Below are positions 3,089 to 24,603 of a DNA stretch of 24,652 nucleotides, one piece after another; position 1 is the first letter of the stretch; the number at the start of each line of letters is the position of its first letter. The position numbers and the translations under genes are program-made. The notes under the pieces are model-generated. The model had not been told where the DNA came from. It saw only the letters and a program-made list of their open reading frames with translations, and did no database searches. This stretch comes from a virus: IMG/VR virus record IMGVR_UViG_3300025671_000503, positions 1 through 24,652 of that record; one strand, 5' to 3'.

Positions 3089-4492
3089 ATGAAAACAAAT
3101 ACAATGAGACAAGAAAAGCTATTCAAAGACAAAGTAGAATTGATAACGGTTGAATCTGTAATTGGTTCAGGTTATGAAGAAGATGTGGCAAAATTAGCCA
3201 TTGAAGACAAGATAGCTTATAGAGCGGCACGTAAAAATATGCAGATTCATTCGGCTATAATTCTAAAAATGAATGATGAATTTGCTGGATTCTTTACCTA
3301 CGAAATAAATCACGATGCTAAAGAATATTGCTTGCTTCAATCAGCAATGTACCCAAGATTTAAAGACGTTGATATTTATCAGCAAATGGTTAATAAAATT
3401 ATTGAAGGGAATACTTTTGGTTACCCAATGATAATGACGGTTTCAAAAAAACATGATTTAGAAAAACCCTCAGTATTTGAAGAAATAGGGTTTAAAGTAA
3501 ACTTAGATAAAAACGACTTTAAATACGTTTATTACGGAGAACCTGAACAAGTTAGAATGAAGCTGTTAGCGCATACAGCAATGACAAATTTATGGCGATC
3601 TACTTCGGGGTTATGGCTTCAAAACAAAAGGGAGTGGAATAGACAGATTGACGCGGCTGGAGAAAAACATGGTGTGCCAAACCCAAGATTCGCTTCGCGT
3701 GAAGGTTGCTGGCAAGGGGCTAAAGGCTTTTCAAATGTGGTATTATCTAAGAACGAAATAGTAGAAGGAAAGATTATTCATAACGATAAGAAAACGCTAA
3801 ATGGAAACGCATCAGTATTAGACCCGACAGCTTGTGAAATAATAGCTAGGTTTTTTATGCCTAAAGGCGGAAAACATATTTACAATCCATTTGGCGGTGG
3901 CGTTCAAATGGGGTTTGTTGCGGGCGGTTGTGGATTTACTTATGAGTCTTCAGAGATAAGAAAAAACCAATGTGATACAAATAATGAAATTTGTAAAGAG
4001 TTTGAAGATGTTAAATGGCACTTATCAGACACATCAAAATACATTCCAGAACGAAAAAGCGATTTAACTTTTTCATGCCCTCCTTATTATAGAGTTGAAA
4101 AATACATTGATTACGATGGCTTACCACCTAAAGGCGAAATAAACCATTTAGGAAGTTATGAGGAGTTTAGAGACACATTATTTCAAGGTTATAAAAACGC
4201 TATAAAAGCAATGAAAGACAACACTTTCTTTGTGGTTATGACAGGAGATAGTAGAGATAAGAACGGTGCTTATTACGGGTGCGAAGCTGAACATGAATTA
4301 TTTTTCAAAGAACAGGGGCTTTACATTTACAATAAGGTAATTTATTTGGAAAGTGAGTTTACGCGGTTCTCACAAGCAAAGAAAACTCTACATCACAGAA
4401 AGTACCCTAAGGCAGACCAAAAGATTTATATGTTCTACAAAGGGGACATGAAAAAGATAAAAGAACTTTACCCTAATATTGGAAGACTATGA
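3089..4492 (+). CDS. GNAT-like domain fused to a DNA methyltransferase, predicted adenine (or cytosine N4) modification enzyme
   Basis: A 467-residue two-part protein. Residues 150-467 form a Rossmann methyltransferase: motif I YNPFGGGVQMGF (265-276) for S-adenosylmethionine and motif IV SCPPYY (329-334), the amino-group methylase active site, followed by VMTGDSRDKNG and a C-terminal SRDKNGAYYG-type hairpin, as in phage N6-adenine/N4-cytosine methylases. Residues 45-150 look like a GNAT acyltransferase (strand AGFFTYEI, a helix after LLQSAMYPRFKDVDIYQQM, and EEIGFKV near the end), similar in fold to phage Mu Mom, which carries out a DNA hypermodification. The start at 3089 is chosen because the open frame upstream overlaps the 2845 gene in another frame. 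The stop overlaps the radical-SAM-like gene (ATGA, 4489-4492). The GNAT call is a reading of secondary-structure pattern, not a database result. Confidence 0.7.
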   Translation: MKTNTMRQEKLFKDKVELITVESVIGSGYEEDVAKLAIEDKIAYRAARKNMQIHSAIILKMNDEFAGFFTYEINHDAKEYCLLQSAMYPRFKDVDIYQQMVNKIIEGNTFGYPMIMTVSKKHDLEKPSVFEEIGFKVNLDKNDFKYVYYGEPEQVRMKLLAHTAMTNLWRSTSGLWLQNKREWNRQIDAAGEKHGVPNPRFASREGCWQGAKGFSNVVLSKNEIVEGKIIHNDKKTLNGNASVLDPTACEIIARFFMPKGGKHIYNPFGGGVQMGFVAGGCGFTYESSEIRKNQCDTNNEICKEFEDVKWHLSDTSKYIPERKSDLTFSCPPYYRVEKYIDYDGLPPKGEINHLGSYEEFRDTLFQGYKNAIKAMKDNTFFVVMTGDSRDKNGAYYGCEAEHELFFKEQGLYIYNKVIYLESEFTRFSQAKKTLHHRKYPKADQKIYMFYKGDMKKIKELYPNIGRL

Positions 4493-5250
4493 GAGAGTAC
4501 ACAAACACAATAACGTTTACTAAAAACATTCGTGGCGTTTATTCTTTAGACCCTATTCTTGGCTGTTCCTCTGGAATGGCTGAGAATGAAAAGGGTTGTT
4601 ACGGAGATTGCTACGCTGCTAGATATGCCAAAAAGTACGGCTACGACTTCTCTAGAAACGTTTTAAGACATTTTAAAGATGAAAAGCACATAGCACTAAT
4701 CAAAAAGAGAATAAATGCTATTAGCTTACCTTTTATCAGAATGGGTACATCGGGCGAGCCTAGCGAAGATTGGGAACATACGCTATCAATTATTGAGAAG
4801 TTAGGACACGTGGATAAAGAAATAGTTATAATCACAAAGCATTGGAAACAATTAACAGACTGTCAACTACAAAGGCTTTCAAAGTTTAATGTTTGTGTGA
4901 ATACTTCTGTATCTGCATTGGATGGTAATATTCTTGAAGTTGGATTGCGTGAATATGAAAGGCTAAAACCTTTTTGTAGGTCAATTTTGCGTGTTGTTTC
5001 TTGTGATTTCAATCTGGATAATTTAGAAGGGCAAAGTCTTGATAGAACACAAGAAAACATATTTAAAAATTATGAGTTTATTGATACTGTTTTAAGGGTT
5101 TCTCTTAATAATCCTTTAGTAACTGAGGGTATAATAAACACACATAAAACAAAGTTCTTAGGTAAGGCGTGTAATATCAGTAAGCGGTTTAAGAAAACTT
5201 ACTTTGGAGGCTGTAATAACTGTTTGGAAATGTGTGGCGTAAATATGTAA
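4489..5250 (+). CDS. cysteine-rich radical-SAM-like protein (DUF5131 / phage Gp37-Gp68-like)
   Basis: A 253-residue protein starting inside the methyltransferase stop (ATGA). The N-terminus carries LGCSSGMAENEKGCYGDCYA (Cys26, Cys37, Cys41), a Cys cluster directly followed by Tyr-Ala as in the DUF5131 family, where it is taken to bind a 4Fe-4S cluster. Central strands (PFIRMGTSGEPS, EIVIITKHW, VCVNTSVSALD, ILRVVSCDF) fit a TIM-barrel radical-SAM-like core. The C-terminus has a second cluster, CNNCLEMC (Cys242, 245, 249), suggesting an auxiliary cluster. The spacing CX10CX3C is not the canonical CX3CX2C, so the radical chemistry is inferred. Coupling to the GNAT-methyltransferase gene suggests a joint role in building a modified base. 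Confidence 0.6.
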   Translation: MREYTNTITFTKNIRGVYSLDPILGCSSGMAENEKGCYGDCYAARYAKKYGYDFSRNVLRHFKDEKHIALIKKRINAISLPFIRMGTSGEPSEDWEHTLSIIEKLGHVDKEIVIITKHWKQLTDCQLQRLSKFNVCVNTSVSALDGNILEVGLREYERLKPFCRSILRVVSCDFNLDNLEGQSLDRTQENIFKNYEFIDTVLRVSLNNPLVTEGIINTHKTKFLGKACNISKRFKKTYFGGCNNCLEMCGVNM

Positions 5251-8156: not shown

Positions 8157-8233
8157 TGAGTAGACCAAGACACATAAGCGAAATAATAGCCGAAATATTA
8201 ACACAAATTCAGAGCAATGAACAAAGACTTTAA
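8156..8233 (+). CDS. possible small protein, 25 residues
   Basis: ATG at 8156 shares a base with the helicase stop (TGATG) and the frame ends at TAA 8231-8233, inside the start of the cytosine methyltransferase gene. The product is MSRPRHISEIIAEILTQIQS plus five residues, one amphipathic helix. The coupling geometry matches the rest of the operon, but a frame this short could be chance or only a means of carrying ribosomes to 8217. Confidence 0.4.
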   Translation: MSRPRHISEIIAEILTQIQSNEQRL

Positions 8234-8903
8234 AGTGCTTAATCTTTACGCTTGCTTGGGTGGCAATCGTTACAAATGGGATGAGGTGGCAGAGGAAGCT
8301 GGAATTGATATGAAAGTAACTGCGGTTGAATTAGACCCTGAGTTAGCTAAGTTGTATAAAGAGCGTTTCCCAAATGATACGGTAATAGTTGCTGATGCTC
8401 ACCAATATTTATTAGATCATTACAAGGAGTTTGATTTCATTTGGAGTTCGCCCCCTTGCCCTAGTCACAGTATAGCAAGAGCATACAATTCAAAATATGA
8501 AACACTATACCCTGACATGAAGCTGTACGAAGAAATTATAATGTTGAATAATGTCTCTAACGGTAATGATGCAAGATTTAAAGGTAAGTTTGTTGTTGAA
8601 AATGTAGTTCCATACTACGAACCATTAATACTCGCAAAGAAGCGAGGTAGGCATTTATATTGGACAAACTTTAATTTACCTAATATATTGACGGATAGAA
8701 AAAACCCAGAATTAGGTCATGCAAAAAGCGAAGTTTTAGAACTTTCAAAGTTTCACGATTATGATTTTAAACAATACAATGGGAATCAAAGCAACATGAA
8801 AATAGCCCGTAACCTAGTAGACTACGAAGCTGGCAGAACCATCTTTGAAACTGCACTAGGAATTATTAGAAAGAAAGACGTAACACAAACAGAACTATTT
8901 TAA
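8217..8903 (+). CDS. cytosine-C5 DNA methyltransferase-like protein
   Basis: A 228-residue protein with the core of a C5-cytosine methylase: motif I NLYACLGG (9-16) for SAM, VTAVELDPE (34-42), motif IV SSPPCPSHS (77-85) with the catalytic Pro-Cys pair, and motif VI VVENVVPYYEPL with ENV (128-130). A KRGRHLYW stretch stands where motif VIII lies, and LVDYEAGRTIFETAL at the end resembles motif X. It is shorter than bacterial Dcm-type enzymes (usually 300-400), so the target-recognition region is small, as in many phage homologues. Expected role: methylating phage DNA against host restriction. Between the helicase and a DnaA-like gene. Confidence 0.8.
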   Translation: MNKDFKVLNLYACLGGNRYKWDEVAEEAGIDMKVTAVELDPELAKLYKERFPNDTVIVADAHQYLLDHYKEFDFIWSSPPCPSHSIARAYNSKYETLYPDMKLYEEIIMLNNVSNGNDARFKGKFVVENVVPYYEPLILAKKRGRHLYWTNFNLPNILTDRKNPELGHAKSEVLELSKFHDYDFKQYNGNQSNMKIARNLVDYEAGRTIFETALGIIRKKDVTQTELF

Positions 8904-21977: not shown

Positions 21978-22831
21978 TGATAAGGATACTAAGGACAATC
22001 TACGACCATAACGGAAAGACTTACAAGGCGGGAACTATTATAAGCGAAACCGTTTTTAAAGCTAGGTTGTTAGATAGATTGTTTAAGAGCAAAGCTGTTG
22101 AATACGTAGAGTTAAAACCTACGCAAGAGTTCAAAGGCGATATTAAGCCCGTTATTGTTACGGGAATGTGGAAACGTCCTGAAGTGTTTAAGATATTCGG
22201 GCAACACTACAAAGATTTAGGAATTGACGTTATTGTTGCTGGTAGTGAGGGTAAAGAATCTGAAAAGCTGGCTAAGAAGTACGGGTTTCATTACATTGAA
22301 ATTGAAAACCAGCCATTGGCAACAAAGATGAACGCCACTACTCTAAAGGCTAAAGAGTTAGGTTACACTCATGTTATTTGTGTCGGTTCTGATGACCTAC
22401 TATCTAAAGAGTTGATTGATGAGTATTTAAAGTTAATGCGTAAGGGTTATGATTACATTGGTGTTACTGACTTTTATTTTTATGAGATGGAAAGCAGTAA
22501 GGCGGCTTATTGGGGAGGATATAGAGACAGACAAAGACTAGGTCACACGGCTGGTGCTGGTCGCGTTATAAGTAGAACATTGCTAGATGAATGGGATTGG
22601 AAGCCGTGGGACGATAAAGATTCAAAGTACTTGGACAACTCCATGCAAACCAAGCTACGTTCATCATTGCACCCTAAAACAACGTTCTCGTTAAAGGAAA
22701 AGGGGCTATTAGCGGTTGACATTAAAAGCCAAGTTAATATGACCCCGTTTGAATTGTGGGATAATACTTCGTACATTGACCCTAAATTGATAACGGATAA
22801 CTTCAATGTGCGGAATAGCGGCAACAATTAA
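21977..22831 (+). CDS. glycosyltransferase-like protein, GT-A (GT2-like)
   Basis: A 284-residue protein. Residues 1-50 form a small extra domain (DHNGKTYKAGTIISETVF; LDRLFKSKAVEYVE). From 58 on, strand-turn-helix VIVTGMWKRPEVFKIFGQHY, then HVICVGSDDLLSKELIDEY, where Asp139-Asp140 (SDD) is the metal and nucleotide-sugar site of GT2-type enzymes, and later WGGYRDRQRLGHTAGAGRVI. A GT-A call is good; donor and acceptor are unknown. It overlaps the tail gene stop by one base and the asparagine-synthase gene by 26 bases, so it forms a unit with the next two genes. Confidence 0.65.
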   Translation: MIRILRTIYDHNGKTYKAGTIISETVFKARLLDRLFKSKAVEYVELKPTQEFKGDIKPVIVTGMWKRPEVFKIFGQHYKDLGIDVIVAGSEGKESEKLAKKYGFHYIEIENQPLATKMNATTLKAKELGYTHVICVGSDDLLSKELIDEYLKLMRKGYDYIGVTDFYFYEMESSKAAYWGGYRDRQRLGHTAGAGRVISRTLLDEWDWKPWDDKDSKYLDNSMQTKLRSSLHPKTTFSLKEKGLLAVDIKSQVNMTPFELWDNTSYIDPKLITDNFNVRNSGNN

Positions 22832-24119
22832 CGGTTCTGATGGCGAAACCCAAATCATGGGCAGAGCCATTTCAAACAGAGGGCTTAACACTAAGAAAAC
22901 AAGGTTAAACGAATTATGTGTTTCGTTTGTCCACCTTCCAATAGTAGCTGATGACTTCAACCAACCATGTACTTATGGTAATGTTACCGTGTGGCTTAAT
23001 GGCTTTATAAGCAACTGGAAAGAGTTATGCACTAAATACATGGTTATTGCTGATAGCGATACTGAATACTTATCTTGGCACATAGCCAAAGGAAAGGATT
23101 TGAGCGAGTTAAACGGATTCTTTGCGGTCTTATACTACCAAGACGGAGTTAAGATGTTCACAGACCGTTACGGTATCAAACAGCTATACAAAATCAAGCA
23201 CAACGGAACGACCTATATCTGTTCTGAAGTAAAGGGACTAAAGGCAGTACTTGATTTAAATGTTGAGTTTGATGGGTTGGCTGATTTAGAATATTCGTTA
23301 GGTGTAATGAATGAAAACACAATCTATGCTAACGTAGAGCGTGTTGAGTGCTTGCCATTCGTTAAGCCTGAAAAGATTGAAGTTGACTACGAAACCGCAA
23401 AGGAAACATTATTGAAACTTTGGGGTAAGTCTATTGTAAGAAACTATTACGAAGGTGCTGGATGCTATCTAAGTGGAGGTGTTGATTCAGGAATGATAGC
23501 CAAATCATTAAACCCTAAATATACATTCTCTGTTGATTACTTGAACGAACTGTCAGAGATAGACAATATAAAGGAAAACTCAACAGGCATACACTACACG
23601 ATGATTTGCAATGAATCATTTAAGAACGAGTATGCGAATAAAACATTTGAGGCGTTAGATGACTTTAAGGCTGGCTCATGCTATACTAACTTTGCGATAG
23701 CTGAATTAGCATCTAAACATTGTCATGTTATTTATTCGGGTGCTGGAGGTGATGAAGTATTTAACGGCTATGCTCACAGATACGACAAATCTATTGATGA
23801 GGTAATAAGGCGAACGGACAAACCATTAAGACATTACGACATAACGCATAAAGAATACGATTGGAAGTTCTTGAAAGCCGTTCTAGTTGTTGAAGATAGG
23901 ATGGGTGGTTATCATTGTATGGAAACGCGTTATCCGTTACTGGATAATGAATTTGTTGATTATGCTTTATCTTTACCTGATGAGTATTTAGAAAACAAGC
24001 GAATATTAAAAGACATTTCAGGTCTAAGCGATAATGTTTTAAATGGCAAGAAGCGCGGGTTTTCAAATCCACATTATACCAATCAAGAATGGATAGACCA
24101 TGTCAAAGGAAATCTATAA
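22806..24119 (+). CDS. asparagine-synthase-like amidotransferase
   Basis: A 437-residue protein with both halves of AsnB-type enzymes. N-terminus MCGIAATING has Cys2, the class II glutaminase nucleophile; NRGL stands near the usual HRGPD, and SDTE (84-87) fits the glutamine site. The AMP-forming half has the PP-loop SGGVDSG (223-229) and GAGGDEVFNGY (312-322). It is shorter than usual AsnB (about 550-600). NGE of the glutaminase site is NGF here (65-67), so use of glutamine is uncertain. In phages and glycan clusters, AsnB relatives amidate sugar acids or peptides. Lies between a glycosyltransferase and an acyltransferase. Confidence 0.85.
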   Translation: MCGIAATINGSDGETQIMGRAISNRGLNTKKTRLNELCVSFVHLPIVADDFNQPCTYGNVTVWLNGFISNWKELCTKYMVIADSDTEYLSWHIAKGKDLSELNGFFAVLYYQDGVKMFTDRYGIKQLYKIKHNGTTYICSEVKGLKAVLDLNVEFDGLADLEYSLGVMNENTIYANVERVECLPFVKPEKIEVDYETAKETLLKLWGKSIVRNYYEGAGCYLSGGVDSGMIAKSLNPKYTFSVDYLNELSEIDNIKENSTGIHYTMICNESFKNEYANKTFEALDDFKAGSCYTNFAIAELASKHCHVIYSGAGGDEVFNGYAHRYDKSIDEVIRRTDKPLRHYDITHKEYDWKFLKAVLVVEDRMGGYHCMETRYPLLDNEFVDYALSLPDEYLENKRILKDISGLSDNVLNGKKRGFSNPHYTNQEWIDHVKGNL

Positions 24120-24603
24120 TCAAGAGGTAATTAATATAGACGGTAATTACATTCATAAGACCGCTATCATTTACCCTAATGTGAAGATGGGTAAAGGCAA
24201 TTACATAGGTGCTTATACTGTCATTGGTTCTAATGGCGAAATACGTGGTGTGAATCAATCAGACTTCAAAGGCTTTGTTACGATTGGAGACAATAACGTG
24301 ATTAGCGAACACGTAACGATTCAGCGACCATTTAAGGCAGAAGCTACAAGCATAGGAAACGACAATATCATAATGGCTCATGCTCATATCGGTCATGATG
24401 TTTACATTGGAAACAATTGCGAGGTATGTACTGGCTCAATCATTGGCGGTTACTCTATCATAAAAGACGATGTGAAGATTAAGCTAGGTGTAACGGTCAG
24501 GAATAGACTTGTAATAGGCAACGGCTCTCTAATAGGTCTTGGAAGCGTTGTTGTTAAAGATGTTGCGCCTAATTCAGTTGTTTACGGAAACCCAGCTAAA
24601 TAA
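24100..24603 (+). CDS. left-handed beta-helix acyltransferase (LpxA-like)
   Basis: A 167-residue protein built of hexapeptide repeats (for example IYPNVKMGKGNYIGAYTVIG, FVTIGDNNVISEHVTI, VYIGNNCEVCTGSIIGG), the left-handed beta-helix of acyl/acetyl transferases. AHIGHD (95-100) places His99 as the catalytic His equivalent to LpxA His125. It is shorter than LpxA (about 260 residues), lacking the C-terminal helical domain, so a sugar O- or N-acyltransferase fits better than lipid A synthesis. It overlaps the asparagine-synthase-like gene by 20 bases and ends the sugar cassette. Confidence 0.8.
   Translation: MSKEIYNQEVINIDGNYIHKTAIIYPNVKMGKGNYIGAYTVIGSNGEIRGVNQSDFKGFVTIGDNNVISEHVTIQRPFKAEATSIGNDNIIMAHAHIGHDVYIGNNCEVCTGSIIGGYSIIKDDVKIKLGVTVRNRLVIGNGSLIGLGSVVVKDVAPNSVVYGNPAK

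Follow-up and report, generated by a model that had tools for sequence, protein, structure and literature searches.

A phage-borne gene pair joining a radical-SAM fold to a GNAT-methyltransferase fusion, a candidate nucleic-acid hypermodification module

The window, which is the whole 24,652-base virus record that was analysed, contains two adjoining open reading frames on the same strand, P1 (ORF 3089-4492) and P2 (ORF 4489-5250), and their features are collected in Table 1. The original prediction had drawn attention to two motifs in P1, YNPFGGGVQMGF and SCPPYY, to a next gene that overlaps the P1 stop, and to two cysteine clusters in that gene (26/37/41 and 242/245/249). Both motifs are present in the translation of ORF 3089-4492, the genes share an ATGA start/stop overlap, and the cysteine positions are exact. 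In most relatives the two genes overlap by 1 or 4 bases. Searching solved structures by sequence returned nothing useful for P1 (best match 2zie, E 0.47), for P2, or for the different radical-SAM (rSAM) protein that replaces P2 in some relatives, and fold searches were therefore used, with structure models that rest on 66-69 related sequences.

Table 1. Features of the P1-P2 locus in the window.
Feature	Position	Strand	Basis
P1, GNAT-methyltransferase fusion, 467 aa	3089..4492	+	ORF and translation; AlphaFold2 model from 66 sequences, mean pLDDT 83.5
GNAT-fold domain, P1 residues 14-151	3128..3541	+	complete GNAT topology in AlphaFold2 model; VIA-align
Site expected for GNAT CoA loop, letters KDVDIY	3362..3379	+	differs from consensus [QR]xxGx[GA]
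Methyltransferase domain, P1 residues 153-453	3545..4447	+	class I methyltransferase in model; homologous to MTase part of phage ParB-MTases
Motif I NPFGGG (predicted SAM binding)	3884..3901	+	conserved 65/65
Motif IV SCPPYY	4073..4090	+	xCPPYY in 65/65 P1 homologues
ATGA stop/start overlap of P1 and P2 genes	4489..4492	+	sequence
P2, radical-SAM-fold partner, 253 aa	4489..5250	+	model pLDDT 95.9, pTM 0.92
rSAM cluster loop C-x10-C-x3-C-Y (Cys26, 37, 41), noncanonical, predicted	4564..4611	+	C-x9-11-C-x3-C-Y[AS] in 69/69
GGE-like predicted SAM-binding motif GxxG[DE]P, after strand 82-85	4744..4761	+	family-wide; G86, P91 invariant
C-terminal C-x2-C-x3-C-G (Cys242, 245, 249)	5212..5235	+	69/69 homologues

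Sequence profiles recognise only the C-terminal half of P1, and the N-terminal domain became apparent from the structure model, which the original prediction had named as a check on its GNAT assignment. The model has a GNAT fold, and the domain is somewhat longer than the span of about residues 45-150 that had been claimed. VIA-align matched it over the range 14-151 to the catalytic subunit of human NatC (Z 15.1), to ElaA (Z 14.8) and to Naa50 (Z 14.7). The CoA pyrophosphate loop, [QR]xxGx[GA], is missing from the GNAT domain of all 65 of 65 full-length P1 homologues, and an invariant tyrosine, Tyr97 of P1, takes the second Gly/Ala position of the loop. Residues R45-R48, N74, Q84, N108, Y112 and T117 are invariant in the same domain (66/66), as expected for an active or binding site. 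Both a clear GNAT match by sequence and an intact CoA loop (WKGNGLAK) were confined to one tandem GNAT-MTase paralogue (L158:5254-5871), which sits directly 3′ of a normal P1 on a contig that ends within the paralogue. The description of the P1 domain as Mom-like did not survive beyond the common GNAT fold: P1 had no match to PF25680 at E<=1 and the hhalign comparison of its GNAT domain with Mom proteins reached a probability of 0.5%, so that membership of P1 in the Mom family was rejected and 'Mom-like' is best taken to mean no more than 'another GNAT'.

The C-terminal half of P1 was correctly foreseen to be a methyltransferase, and a class I fold was found in the model. In profile searches it matched PF01555 (N6_N4_Mtase) with an E-value of 7e-5, which is under the curated cut-off, and the same profile was hit at E<=0.01 by 51 of the 66 P1 homologues. 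Much stronger matches were to phrog_12517 (E 6e-39) and phrog_498 (E 1e-37), which bear the label 'DNA methyltransferase'. The more specific claim of an amino-methyltransferase is in agreement with the PF01555 kinship, the class I fold and motif I, but not with motif IV, where a cysteine replaces the D/N/S of the amino-methyltransferase consensus [DNS]PP[YFW] (65/65). CPPY is also found in three phage relatives, P2559S, Mae-JY30 and B054. Phage ParB-methyltransferases (phrog_498; Listeria phage B054 gp77) share with P1 a homologous MTase domain, the CPPY motif IV and the preceding region, whereas their N-terminal domain is ParB, not GNAT, and no annotated rSAM neighbour was seen at three of their loci. 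At one locus of this kind, in Croceibacter phage P2559S (L255:4470-6111), the CPPY ParB-MTase is followed by a gene annotated as S-adenosylmethionine decarboxylase, which might hint at aminopropyl transfer.

By structure, the best matches of the MTase domain were Trm11, TrmN and Trm14, with archaeal Trm11 (aTrm11, 5e71) at Z 17.2 over 180 aligned residues in VIA-align. Since the nearest solved structures are thus tRNA m2G enzymes, an RNA substrate is possible, and the module could alter host or phage tRNA, for example to evade tRNA-cleaving defences; Elp3, another enzyme compared below, also acts on tRNA (PMC13315578). This reading seems distinctly unlikely to us, because the MTase sequence itself falls in phage ParB-linked families annotated as DNA methyltransferases, and because the fold of P2 is nearest to that of spore photoproduct lyase (SPL), a DNA enzyme.

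The predicted structure of P2 is an rSAM partial barrel, and the original description of the second protein as radical-SAM-like was therefore borne out, albeit with noncanonical cysteine spacing. SPL (4fhf) came first in VIA-align, with Z 12.3 over 217 aligned residues, and the top matches below it were radical SAM enzymes as well. Foldseek against the PDB agreed weakly (best E 2.8e-3), and the viral structure models nearest to P2 are rSAM proteins too. The likeness to SPL, the nearest solved fold, is one of fold and domain content and not of close homology, as SPL is a stand-alone repair enzyme, while P2 has 12% identity to it, a C-x10-C-x3-C spacing and an invariant C-terminal cysteine trio. 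Elp3 was not among the 50 structural matches listed for P2, an absence that is compatible with kinship. Profile searches gave weak but consistent hints in the same direction: P2 of the window matched TIGR04470 with an E-value of 4e-4, and one or a few of the 69 P2 homologues matched TIGR04470, PA0069-type rSAM, DUF5131 or Fer4_12, among unrelated chance matches. DUF5131 (PF07505), for which a profile search had originally been proposed, was hit by one of the 69 homologues (E 8e-4) and not by P2 of the window; it may be a remote relative, and membership of P2 in that family was dropped because the match was too weak.

Six cysteines of P2 (26, 37, 41, 242, 245 and 249) are invariant in the 69 homologues. 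The family does not have the canonical CX3CX2C; all 69 have C-x9-11-C-x3-C instead. As judged from the secondary structure of the model, Cys26 comes directly after strand 23-25 and Cys41 directly before helix 42-49, as in an rSAM cluster loop. Since rSAM enzymes with unusual cysteine spacing are known, such as QueE and ThiC, P2 was classed as an rSAM-fold relative. The C-terminal cysteine trio is possibly a second Fe-S or Zn site.

Relatives of P1 and P2 were gathered from viral contigs and bacterial genomes, yielding 144 distinct P1 sequences, a number that counts sequences and not independent phages, as viral contigs can overlap. P2 lies directly after P1 in 87 of the 144 and directly before it in 6, while in 34 the two form a single polypeptide of about 740-830 aa in the order P2(rSAM)-GNAT-MTase. 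In another 12 cases, P1 is followed by a different rSAM protein with the canonical CX3CX2C motif (13 with L191, whose rSAM start overlaps the end of P1). The remaining five comprise three P1 genes at contig ends, L191 with its overlapping rSAM, and L158 with the paralogue next to it. An rSAM-fold partner is thus fused to or adjoins every P1 that can be judged, with the one exception being L158, which is cut by the contig end and has the paralogue as its neighbour. This obligate coupling is far beyond chance, and it upholds across the 144 distinct P1 sequences the functional link that had been proposed from a single locus. In a Massilibacteroides MAG (L180:7569-7835), what comes after P1 is a remnant of 88 residues, in which nothing but the C-terminal end of the replacing rSAM is left.

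The replacing rSAM matched Pfam Radical_SAM with an E-value of 1e-6, just under the curated cut-off, and comparison of P2 with this family (A3) by hhalign (probability 84%, E 8e-6) indicated remote kinship. On the P1 tree the replacing rSAM is scattered, with 12 changes, at least 7 of which are forced by well-supported branches. Because the partner was swapped at least 7 times, the GNAT-MTase seems to need an rSAM, though no particular one, and the repeated exchange together with the natural fusions is strong evidence of a joint reaction. These data also bear on another explanation, namely that P1 is an ordinary DNA methyltransferase, whose dead GNAT domain serves as a target-recognition or protein-contact module in the place of ParB, and that the rSAM protein has a separate task, such as repair or the removal of a modification. 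Such a division of labour would agree with the loss of the CoA loop in 65/65 homologues, with the presence of ParB at the N-terminal end of relatives, Listeria phage B054 gp77 among them, and with P2 being nearest to a DNA repair lyase. However, a shared reaction is favoured by the 34 fusions and by an rSAM that was exchanged at least 7 times, and the GNAT residues that are invariant in 66/66 are what one expects of an active or binding site, and we hold this explanation to be highly improbable.

The module is essentially phage-borne. Two samples of bacterial genomes, of 395 and 297, each contained a single genome with the P2 family (2/692), which is thus nearly absent from them; the bacterial P1 records are metagenome or single-organism assemblies, mostly of anaerobic groups (Smithella, Desulfobacterales, Spirochaetes and Massilibacteroides). 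A search of 50,697 records yielded no isolate phage with P2 or the GNAT-MTase architecture. The replacing rSAM family often adjoins ParB and in a small number of phages also Mom, which is a point in favour of a role in hypermodification, although little weight was given to ParB, since both may simply sit near terminase genes. Mom genes were found in 2 of 28 P1-P2 records and, where the replacing rSAM is concerned, at 6 of 69 loci, and their co-occurrence was dropped as strong support because of the former count; this sparse link and the noncanonical cluster motif of P2 are points against the hypermodification model. A motif count for other methyltransferases near the replacing rSAM found little.

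Several neighbourhoods deserve separate mention. At one locus (L223:4947-7110), genes for a canonical rSAM, for ParB and for a true Mom (PF25680, E 6e-47) lie side by side. At others (L202:5013-7801, L209, L239 and more), the neighbourhood of the replacing rSAM family includes ParB and a queuine tRNA-ribosyltransferase-like gene, the latter in 10 loci, and these may possibly represent a separate DNA-modification island. In the window itself, positions 22806-24119 encode an asparagine-synthetase-like amidotransferase (PF00733, E 1e-26; GATase_7) and 24100-24603 a hexapeptide-repeat transferase. The former was considered for the role of an amidating enzyme, on the model of CmoY, and rejected, since PF00733 occurred in 0 of 28 other P1-P2 records, and the pair is probably glycan related. 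A short C5-cytosine methyltransferase-like protein of 228 aa (PF00145, E 4e-8) is encoded at 8217-8903 of the window, and a similar gene lies near the P1-P2 pair of another contig (L004 4962-5591).

By analogy, the closest mechanistic precedent for the P1-P2 module appears to be Elp3 (tRNA cm5U34), a likeness in fold and domain content and not close homology: both combine an rSAM partial barrel with a GNAT domain, which in our family are on one chain in the 34 fused homologues and in separate genes in the window, and the domain order of Elp3, rSAM then GNAT, is the same as in the fused homologues. The module differs in its additional methyltransferase domain, in being phage-borne, in an rSAM half that is nearest to SPL, and in lacking the CoA loop by which a CoA-binding KAT site would be recognised. 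In Elp3, acetyl-CoA yields acetate at the GNAT (KAT) site, and the methyl carbon of this acetate is activated at the rSAM site and joined to C5 of uridine; acetyl-CoA can be replaced by free acetate (PMC13315578). The Mom protein of phage Mu (PF25680), which is a GNAT and modifies adenine at N6 (PMC7824862), resembles the module in its GNAT fold, phage origin and proposed base modification, but has no profile similarity to P1 and contains neither an MTase nor an rSAM domain. The missing CoA loop weakens a strict analogy with either Elp3 or Mom. In the thymidine hypermodification of phages M6 and ViI, radical-SAM enzymes and acetyltransferases act on phage DNA, where they are separate enzymes working on 5-hmdU-derived amino acids, and we know of no GNAT-MTase fusion in that system. 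The CmoA/CmoX/CmoY carboxymethylcytosine pathway is also a phage system, in which a DNA base is given a carbon handle that is then elaborated; it differs in using carboxy-SAM and a C5-methyltransferase, and the paper describing it names no rSAM or GNAT (PMC12783734).

Since an rSAM, an acyltransferase-like domain and a base methyltransferase are always joined, the module probably decorates phage DNA, or possibly RNA, with a chemical group. We believe, with somewhat more confidence than doubt, that P1 and P2 constitute one phage-borne, Elp3-like nucleic-acid hypermodification enzyme with a protective role, and we infer DNA as the substrate from the kinship with phrog_498, the SPL-like fold of the rSAM half and the phage setting. 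In such an enzyme, the MTase domain of P1 would bind SAM and flip out or position a base, probably in phage DNA, P2 would make a 5′-deoxyadenosyl radical from SAM using a [4Fe-4S] cluster, and the GNAT domain would keep a small acyl- or acetate-like donor beside the radical site of P2. A carbon group would then be joined to the base, as is done on tRNA uridine by the rSAM and GNAT parts of Elp3, and the attached group would shield phage DNA from restriction. The MTase domain added in the fused homologues may accordingly be regarded as the putative base-binding and targeting part. With the CoA loop lost, an acyl-CoA bound in the ordinary way is an unlikely donor. A modified adenine, the product named in the original prediction, is one of several possibilities, and the chemistry proposed there is only partly supported. 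A more tentative idea, which we think has less than an even chance of being right, is that of a new enzyme class in which the rSAM/GNAT pair adds carbon to a base held by an MTase-type domain, working like Elp3 on DNA and possibly with a donor other than acyl-CoA.

The steps could also run in another manner, with the MTase methylating an exocyclic nitrogen, P2 abstracting a hydrogen from that methyl group, and GNAT capping or exchanging the resulting group. An apparently complete MTase domain with its SAM motif (65/65) would suit this scheme, as would the fused homologues, in which a single chain carries the three activities. Its order of steps is an assumption, however, and in motif IV a cysteine stands in for the D/N/S of amino-methyltransferases, and we consider the scheme rather unlikely.

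The combination of rSAM, GNAT and phage methyltransferase was not found described in the literature searched, the scope of which did not extend to a 2013 survey of predicted DNA-modification systems (Iyer) or the thymidine hypermodification paper, and an earlier prediction in either is possible. The parts of the module are of known kinds, and the reaction itself has a real chance of being new. The homologues that carry rSAM, GNAT and MTase on a single chain make the module directly testable. Should the Elp3-like hypermodification model be true, modified DNA bases could be reached by a new route, namely radical carbon chemistry under the direction of a methyltransferase domain. The model would also touch on the question, left open by Mom, of how a GNAT without a CoA loop can serve in nucleobase chemistry, and under it phages would have a broader range of chemical defences against restriction, and perhaps against CRISPR.
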